Part shown: piece after piece, positions 4,010-33,238 of the stretch
How positions within the stretch are numbered: position 1 is the first letter of the stretch
How the letters are laid out: the number at the start of each line of letters is the position of its first letter
Assembly (NCBI RefSeq): GCF_002896855.1
Contig: NZ_CP021850.1
Coordinates: 2,567,665-2,631,664 of the forward strand
Reading direction: 5' to 3'
DNA: 64,000 nt
DNA from: Clostridium thermosuccinogenes
Lineage (GTDB): Bacteria > Bacillota > Clostridia > Acetivibrionales > DSM-5807
Made by a program: the position numbers and the translations under genes
Notes under the pieces: model-generated
Told to the model about the DNA's origin: nothing
What the model saw: the letters and a program-made list of their open reading frames with translations, nothing else
Database searches by the model: none

Positions 4010-5620
4010 TTAATTTCGATAGTCATTTGGTGTTCTACCCAATAGACGCTTAAAGGATTTGATAAAATAAGGCACGGATTCATAGCCAACCATCTTGGCG
4101 ATATCTCCAACTTTCATATTGGTTTCGCAAAGCAATTCCTGTGCCTTTTTTAGTCTTTTAGCCAGTATATAATCGCTGAAATTCTCTCCTGTTACTTTTT
4201 TAAACAGCTTTGAGAAGTATGTCGGGCTGTAGTTAACCATCGAAGAGATTGCAGTAAGGGACAAATCCCCGGATAGGTTGTTGTCTATATATTCTTCTAC
4301 CTGTTTTATCATATCTGTCACAGCATTGTTATACTCAATGGACTGGGCGAAAAGGGTTTCTGTGATTTGCTTGTACGTCAAAATCAGATTTTCGCCGGAT
4401 ATGTTTGAAATATCCACGCTAAAGAGCACAGAGCAGATCTCCTTGTAAACATCAAAAGGCGCGGCTATCGCCTCAAGACATTTTATGTAAATCGCACTGA
4501 TTTTATAATGAAAGCCGACAAGATCGACATTCCCCAATATTTTATCGAGCTTGTCAATTGCCTTGAAAACTCTTTCACGATCATTGCAAAGCAACGAATG
4601 CTCTATTTCCTGGAGGAATTGCTTGTACTGTTCTTCAGAAGATATCTCGTCCTGAAGTTCAAAGCTGTTCTCTGCTATCAATATCGATTCATTGAGGTTA
4701 TGATGTCTGTGAATTGCCCTCTTAATGGCAAAAAATTTATATTGCAGTTCATCCCAACTGCATTGATTGTCTGCAATGACAAAAGAAACATCGGATTTTA
4801 ATATTTTCGAGCAGGAGTCCTGAATGATGTCCAGCAAGGAAAGAACATATTGGAAGCTGTCTCCCTGATATATATCCATCATATCCTCCCTTGCCTTTTG
4901 TATAAACCATAAGACAAAACCTCCGTCCATGTTTACACAATAATGCTTGTGAGTATGCTTCAGATGCTCGCTTAACACACTGTCTACAGCCAGTACGGAC
5001 AGGTTGTTGTCGGATTGTCCTAATTGACAGTCTCTTCCCTTATCCTCCTTTATGACTGCTCCCAGGAGGATTACAGGATTTTCTGCATTCAGCTCTATGC
5101 TATATTGATTTAGCTTTTTATTTATTGCTTGCTGGTCTGTAATTTTTCCATTTATAACGTCCATAAAAAACTCTTTACGAAGCATCGGCAAAGCAAGCTG
5201 GATATTTTTTTGCATGCGCAGAAAAACTTCATCCGCCCTGATTGAAGATTCGATCTTTTCTATTGCTTTATTGACGGCTTTAGCCAATACATCGAAATGC
5301 TCATTCTTAAGAACATAATCGACAAAAGATGCCTGACGTATGGCATTTTGGGCAAAGTGAACCTCCTCGTTTCCTGTAAGGAAGATTACATTGCATTTGG
5401 GCCATATCTGGCATATTTTCTTTTGAAGGGTATAACCGTCCATTCGCGGCATGGTGATATCCGTTATGAGAATATCCACTCTGTTATGCGCCTTCTGCAA
5501 AGCTTCTGAAGGGGTGTAAGCCTTTTGAATATTTAACATATTGGCATATTTATCGCTGAGGTATTCAAAATAACTGTCTGTTATTATTGGCTCATCATCA
5601 ACAATCAGCAGATTATACAT
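4010..5620 (-). CDS. YesN-type response regulator with AraC output domain
   Basis: A 536-residue response regulator. Residues 1-120 form a receiver with acidic pocket D8/D9, phospho-acceptor D54 (LITDITMPRMDG) and a Lys near 104. A long middle region of about 300 residues follows, and the C-terminal 100 residues carry two AraC helix-turn-helix units (SPTYFSKLFKKVTGENFSDY, then VGYESVPYFIKSFKR). It should be phosphorylated by the kinase encoded 4 nt upstream and activate the sugar importer operon downstream, the usual arrangement of YesM/YesN with LplABC transporters. Regulation of that operon is inferred from position. Confidence 0.9.
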   Translation of the reverse strand: MYNLLIVDDEPIITDSYFEYLSDKYANMLNIQKAYTPSEALQKAHNRVDILITDITMPRMDGYTLQKKICQIWPKCNVIFLTGNEEVHFAQNAIRQASFVDYVLKNEHFDVLAKAVNKAIEKIESSIRADEVFLRMQKNIQLALPMLRKEFFMDVINGKITDQQAINKKLNQYSIELNAENPVILLGAVIKEDKGRDCQLGQSDNNLSVLAVDSVLSEHLKHTHKHYCVNMDGGFVLWFIQKAREDMMDIYQGDSFQYVLSLLDIIQDSCSKILKSDVSFVIADNQCSWDELQYKFFAIKRAIHRHHNLNESILIAENSFELQDEISSEEQYKQFLQEIEHSLLCNDRERVFKAIDKLDKILGNVDLVGFHYKISAIYIKCLEAIAAPFDVYKEICSVLFSVDISNISGENLILTYKQITETLFAQSIEYNNAVTDMIKQVEEYIDNNLSGDLSLTAISSMVNYSPTYFSKLFKKVTGENFSDYILAKRLKKAQELLCETNMKVGDIAKMVGYESVPYFIKSFKRLLGRTPNDYRN

Positions 5621-32893: not shown

Positions 32894-33203
32894 AAAGGCT
32901 TTCATCTCCGACATTTCTGCCAGAGACGAAAGCCATTACTTCCGTGGTACCACTCTAATTGGTATGTACATACCCTCTTTGCGGCATCGATCTTACGATG
33001 AATGCCCTCTCGTTATAACGGCGAGAAACCCGGTCCCACCTACTTGCCACAAACAGCACGGAGCCGCCGCAGCTTTCAGCTGACTGCTCAAGGGGGAGTT
33101 CACAGCCTGCCATGTGCACTGTCTCTCAGCAACCGACAGCTCTCTGAAGCACATTAAAACAGTGTGTTTTCCCTGTCAACGCATTTACGAATATACAATA
33201 TTG
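32894..33203 (-). promoter_or_regulatory. T-box leader, specifier probably CUC (Leu)
   Basis: The minus-strand leader of the fusion gene has the T-box hallmarks: a Stem I start AGAGAGC..GGTTGCTGAGAG (about 33145-33120), a specifier region GTGAA-CTC-CCCCTTGAGC with CTC at 33098-33096, the conserved T-box AGAGTGGTACCACGG (32942-32956), and a terminator stem GGCTTTCGTCTC/GAGATGAAAGCC plus a T-rich run (about 32894-32934). Uncharged tRNA-Leu would stabilise the antiterminator and switch the gene on. Specifier assignment is by aligning to the usual spacing before GAGC and is less certain than the T-box itself. Confidence 0.85.
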
Positions 33204-33209
33204 CTGCAA

Positions 33210-33238
33210 ATAATATCAAATATTTAATTATATGTCAA
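33210..33238 (-). promoter_or_regulatory. Promoter of the T-box leader
   Basis: A consensus -35 TTGACA (33233-33238), 17-bp spacer and -10 TATTAT (33210-33215) on the minus strand. Transcription should start near 33203. Confidence 0.82.

Follow-up and report, generated by a model that had tools for sequence, protein, structure and literature searches.

The 64-kb window considered here, that is, the whole 64,000-nucleotide stretch of DNA analysed, carries on its minus strand a leader that extends from promoter to terminator (32894-33238) and precedes a gene encoding an 843-residue fusion of a TIM barrel and an acyl-CoA ligase (P0001, 32858-30327, minus strand). The promoter (33238-33210) is of the sigma-70 type, TTGACA-17-TATTAT with an extended -10 TG, and agrees with the consensus at 11 of 12 positions. 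The T-box leader itself (33188-32919), comprising Stem I, Stem II, Stem III and the antiterminator, is matched by the full Rfam model RF00230 (positions 1-219) as a class-I T-box, with a covariance score of 109.5 bits against a gathering threshold of 93 (E 2.8e-23), and is the sole Rfam match within the window. In the RF00230 alignment, the leader segment GAA-CUC-CCCCUUGAG (that is, GAA-CUCCCCCUUGAG) falls on the consensus GAAauucaCCcugGAG, and the CUC triplet at 33098-33096 therefore fills the specifier columns and designates leucine. The first-pass annotation had proposed a complete leader with a CUC specifier in front of an acyl-CoA ligase fusion; the covariance model that it called for, together with the located promoter and terminator, confirms both points.

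The T-box sequence AGAGUGGUACCACGG is located at 32956-32942 by the RF00230 match, and comparison with the tRNA sequence indicates that its UGGU bulge (32952-32949) matches A73-CCA of tRNA-Leu(GAG). The specifier and the bulge each have a partner, because the host genome encodes a tRNA-Leu(GAG) with discriminator A73 and an encoded CCA. The competing intrinsic terminator (32934-32897) overlaps the 3' arm of the antiterminator, and its hairpin reaches -29.8 kcal/mol (z -6.3), a stability equalled by none of 200 shuffled sequences. The host genome, a single contig of 4.73 Mb, contains 27 RF00230 matches, and the T-boxes of leuS and ilvB display CUC at the same specifier place as the fusion leader. 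Elsewhere in this genome, RF00230 is found as two adjoining partial pieces before metG-like genes (G000:C1:1501840-1502327 and 1511269-1511697, L024 to L027), which are possibly tandem or split T-boxes.

The ligase half of the fusion consists of an AMP-binding domain (residues 303-692; 31952-30783; Pfam E 2.8e-95) and an AMP-binding_C domain (residues 743-818; 30632-30405; Pfam E 7.4e-21). These domains and the nucleotide motif TSGTTGFPK, invariant or nearly so among 59 aligned fusions, place it among the AMP-forming ligases of the ANL superfamily. The closest NCBIfam model, PRK12583, gives the fusion 711 bits, under its cut-off of 832, and gives a stand-alone ligase orthologue 817 bits. The AlphaFold model shows two well-folded domains (pLDDT 84.9, pTM 0.63), and a fold search returned, among the matches listed, ANL ligases only, for the ligase half, and nothing on the reaction of the TIM barrel. 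The latter half, which the first-pass annotation had left undescribed while correctly recognizing an acyl-CoA ligase fusion, is a xylose-isomerase-like TIM barrel of the AP_endonuc_2 family (residues 22-245; 32795-32124; minus strand; 107 bits against a cut-off of 31). It retains the metal-ligand positions E143, D171, H198 and E240, which by analogy with the family would bind metal. These positions are kept in nearly all of 87 fusions, and this conservation suggests that the TIM barrel probably catalyses some reaction in most hosts. A sequence search of the PDB with the TIM half produced nothing beyond weak matches to Art22 and MJ1311.

The fusion has close homologues that are widely distributed among Clostridia and also occur in some Negativicutes. 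In other genomes the ligase stands alone, with 54-64 per cent identity, and the TIM barrel is encoded by the next gene (L138-L141) or elsewhere. Among the matches listed, a separate TIM homologue is present in approximately 25 of 28 genomes with a split ligase versus 1 of 30 without any ligase. In five genomes, the ligase gene has an amidohydrolase-type gene next to it (L141:6384-7208, L200:10120-10926, L203:9238-10029, L139:2765-3625 and L140:425-1291). No conserved gene neighbour of the fusion was found among 80 named loci, and the T-box is for this reason the main clue to the function of most members.

The survey of specifiers covered 102 distinct fusion genes for which 400 nt or more of upstream sequence was available, calls scoring below 5.2 being dropped as misreadings. 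On host genes, the automatic caller was correct for thrS, leuS, ileS, two valS, trpB, trpE and tyrS, and wrong for alaS and serS by a slip of register. It returned 53 specifiers before fusion genes, all CUC or CUG, and seven more leaders (L043, L048, L052, L082, L105, L124 and L128) were read by eye as leucine. All 60 T-boxes that could be read in front of distinct fusion genes, in very diverse Clostridia and Negativicutes, therefore specify leucine, and the exchanges between CUC and CUG leave the amino acid unchanged. The split genes agree, since the 11 T-boxes of stand-alone ligases all carry CUC (ten called automatically, L146 by eye). The survey of homologues for T-boxes of unrelated amino acids, suggested by the first-pass annotation, thus yielded no confidently called leader, of fusion or stand-alone ligase, that reads as another amino acid. 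About 42 of the 102 loci are without a readable T-box, most of them lacking the motif, and cmscan detected a T-box in none of 16 such motif-less loci. The leucine T-box on this acyl-CoA ligase is a real and conserved feature.

Several loci in the survey depart from the usual arrangement. In L063, some 220 nt ahead of the fusion, a leader with T-box, Stem III and terminator has apparently lost Stem I, a deletion that may reflect an error of assembly. In L132 and L137, the latter with a readable leucine specifier, a small DUF1294-like membrane ORF lies between T-box and fusion. Locus L201 also contains a T-box with an apparent UAC (Tyr) specifier (4618-4870) before a sodium/solute symporter, predicted from this leader to be a tyrosine transporter.

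The genomic context in relatives of the host points to a role of the ligase in leucine synthesis. A complete genome of 1.5 Mb contains the operon vorB-vorA-vorC-ilvE-leuA paralogue-fusion (L176), whose ilvE scores 486 bits against a cut-off of 307 and whose gene order would cover ligation, reductive carboxylation and transamination. Among 50 named fusion genomes, leuB exceeds its cut-off in only 21, and both leuB and leuC are missing in 28, where only relatives of isocitrate dehydrogenase or aconitase are found; many of these genomes are metagenome assemblies, but the two genes nonetheless vanish together. VorB is present above cut-off in 46 of the 50 and in 26 of the 28 genomes lacking leuB and leuC, about 18 of which still possess the T-box. 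Over the 99 relatives listed, VorB occurs in 64 of 69 genomes with the ligase versus 16 of 30 without it (Fisher p 1.7e-5), an association that persists when each family is represented by a single genome (p 5.6e-4). The host encodes VorBAC together with a full ilvBNC-leuA and leuCDB set, so that isovalerate salvage would not be obligatory there; no T-box was found at its vor, ior-paaK and leuCDB loci.

In seven genomes (G065, G074, G075, G083, G088, G097 and G099), a relative of LeuA is encoded directly upstream of the fusion (L176:4821-6260, L200:6170-7633, L201:9009-10418, L202:9185-10687, L203:5317-6717, L205:1893-3302 and L208:6414-7796). In all seven proteins, the catalytic RD and the two histidines of HxH, which are metal ligands, are gone but the leucine-binding LeuA_dimer domain is kept; a leucine T-box (CUC or CUG, read by eye in L208) precedes the operon in five of the seven. 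The protein is accordingly a candidate leucine-sensing pseudoenzyme, as judged from the lost residues and the kept domain. A role of this paralogue in the normal leucine pathway was considered and rejected, because the metal ligands are missing in all seven copies. Six fusions from these operons were examined, and five of them have also lost the TIM metal ligands and kept the ligase, which argues that the link to leucine does not require the TIM reaction.

A second, unrelated family of ligases, combining an HTH-cupin region with an AMP-ligase, carries isoleucine (AUC) T-boxes in eight genomes (L215-L220, L222 and L223) and adjoins vor genes in several. The host relative (L229) is devoid of a T-box. 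This family is likely a 2-methylbutyrate-CoA ligase. Carboxylation of isovalerate to leucine (cited in PMC7356843) and of 2-methylbutyrate to isoleucine (PMC2812497) are both documented in rumen anaerobes, and the isoleucine T-boxes match the second route in the same way as those of the present ligase match the first.

Taken together, these observations make it probable that the fusion is a leucine-controlled ligase for exogenous isovalerate, and use of this acid for leucine synthesis is the most likely function. When leucine is limiting, pairing of uncharged tRNA-Leu(GAG) with the CUC specifier and with the UGGU bulge would let the antiterminator form, and the ligase gene would be transcribed; with charged tRNA, the terminator would stay. 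The enzyme would convert isovalerate (3-methylbutyrate) to isovaleryl-CoA, which VOR, a 2-ketoisovalerate-type ferredoxin oxidoreductase working in the carboxylating direction, would reductively carboxylate to 2-ketoisocaproate, and a branched-chain aminotransferase would then produce leucine. In the host, this route would operate alongside the complete ilv-leu pathway; many relatives lack leuB and leuC and might have no other means of making leucine. Several observations count against this reading: the host has a complete leucine pathway of its own, about 42 of the 102 fusion loci are without a readable T-box, the fusion scores below the PRK12583 cut-off, the vor-ilvE-fusion operon was seen in one genome only, VorB is common without the ligase too, and a plain isovalerate ligase has no need of the conserved TIM metal ligands or of the separate TIM gene that accompanies most split ligases.

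The first-pass annotation had suggested that the enzyme handles a leucine-derived or branched acid. The kind of acid holds; its direction is refined to a precursor of leucine, isovalerate, instead of a breakdown product, because the T-box would be on when leucine is short, the ligase is found in a vor-ilvE operon and in hosts lacking leuB and leuC, and it is accompanied in some genomes by the LeuA-derived partner. A catabolic role in leucine fermentation was set aside, since genes under a T-box should be activated when leucine is scarce.

The main rival to the synthesis of leucine from isovalerate is that the ligase makes up for a shortage of leucine, the usual source of isovaleryl-CoA, by providing this thioester to prime the synthesis of iso-branched membrane fatty acids. 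A leucine T-box would fit this role too, since isovaleryl-CoA would fall as leucine became scarce, and Staphylococcus aureus MbcS sets a precedent with 2-methylbutyrate and isobutyrate (PMC10026030). This explanation is nevertheless unlikely, given that the operon partners are vorBAC and ilvE and not fatty-acid genes, that the LeuA-derived partner retains a leucine-binding domain, that the T-box is retained in hosts lacking leuB and leuC, that parallel isoleucine T-box ligases exist, and that MbcS handles isovalerate poorly (PMC10026030).

Equally improbable is that the ligase activates another acid of the leucine pathway, made by the TIM barrel with the amidohydrolase in some loci, along an unrecognised route to leucine or a precursor and not by salvage of free isovalerate. 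The TIM barrel is fused, adjacent or separately encoded in most ligase genomes, its metal ligands are conserved in nearly all of the 87 fusions, and five genomes have the amidohydrolase-type gene next to the ligase gene; against this, five of the six fusions from leuA-paralogue operons lost these ligands and kept the ligase, and no obvious chemistry would lead there from known precursors. That the T-box was gained by chance and reports general starvation only, on an enzyme without a leucine role, is very improbable, for even if T-boxes can spread by duplication and roughly 40 per cent of the fusion genes are without one, the uniformly leucine specifiers of such diverse bacteria, their CUC/CUG switches and the agreement of the split orthologues speak against it.

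Beyond the preferred synthesis of leucine from isovalerate, a wider scheme can be put forward, though only tentatively. In this scheme, a branched-acid module would be wired to leucine by the T-box and, in some lineages, by a catalytically dead LeuA acting as a leucine sensor to gate the enzyme; the isoleucine T-box ligase would belong to a module running in parallel, and the TIM barrel, with the amidohydrolase in some loci, would perform an undescribed step. The leucine T-box and its isoleucine counterpart on another ligase family name candidate ligases and predict when they would be on. The fusion illustrates how T-boxes can serve as clues to the function of unassigned enzymes, and gut Clostridia lacking leuB and leuC need not be leucine auxotrophs if isovalerate is present.

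Compared with the known leucine T-boxes of leuS and ilv-leu (RF00230), the present leader has Stem I, the CUC specifier, the UGGU bulge and the terminator/antiterminator pair in common; CUC is also the specifier of Bacillus subtilis ilv-leu (Marta et al. 1996, cited in PMC2494555). The target differs, being a TIM-fused acyl-CoA ligase and not a synthetase, a leucine biosynthesis gene or a transporter. The survey PMC2494555 does not list such a ligase among its T-box targets, and no paper naming this target was found among those searched; an earlier listing in the RNA 2008 or MMBR 2009 surveys of T-box targets may exist. The fusion and MbcS of S. aureus are both AMP-forming ligases predicted for extracellular branched short-chain acids, but MbcS prefers 2-methylbutyrate and isobutyrate, is poor on isovalerate and feeds fatty-acid synthesis, and the paper describing it mentions no T-box (PMC10026030). 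The PaaK-IorAB system, a phenylacetate-CoA ligase with indolepyruvate ferredoxin oxidoreductase (L170 in the host), likewise pairs an acid-CoA ligase with a 2-ketoacid ferredoxin oxidoreductase; it differs by its aryl acids and its PaaK-type ligase, and a T-box was not found at the host locus. The isovalerate carboxylation pathway of rumen bacteria goes back to Allison, Bryant and Doetsch (1962, cited in PMC7356843); among the papers searched, none was found that gives the pathway a dedicated ligase gene. The conversion of branched volatile fatty acids to leucine and isoleucine in the rumen and in other anaerobes has been known by labelling since the 1960s, and the rumen carboxylation of isovalerate is the physiology that the fusion gene would serve.
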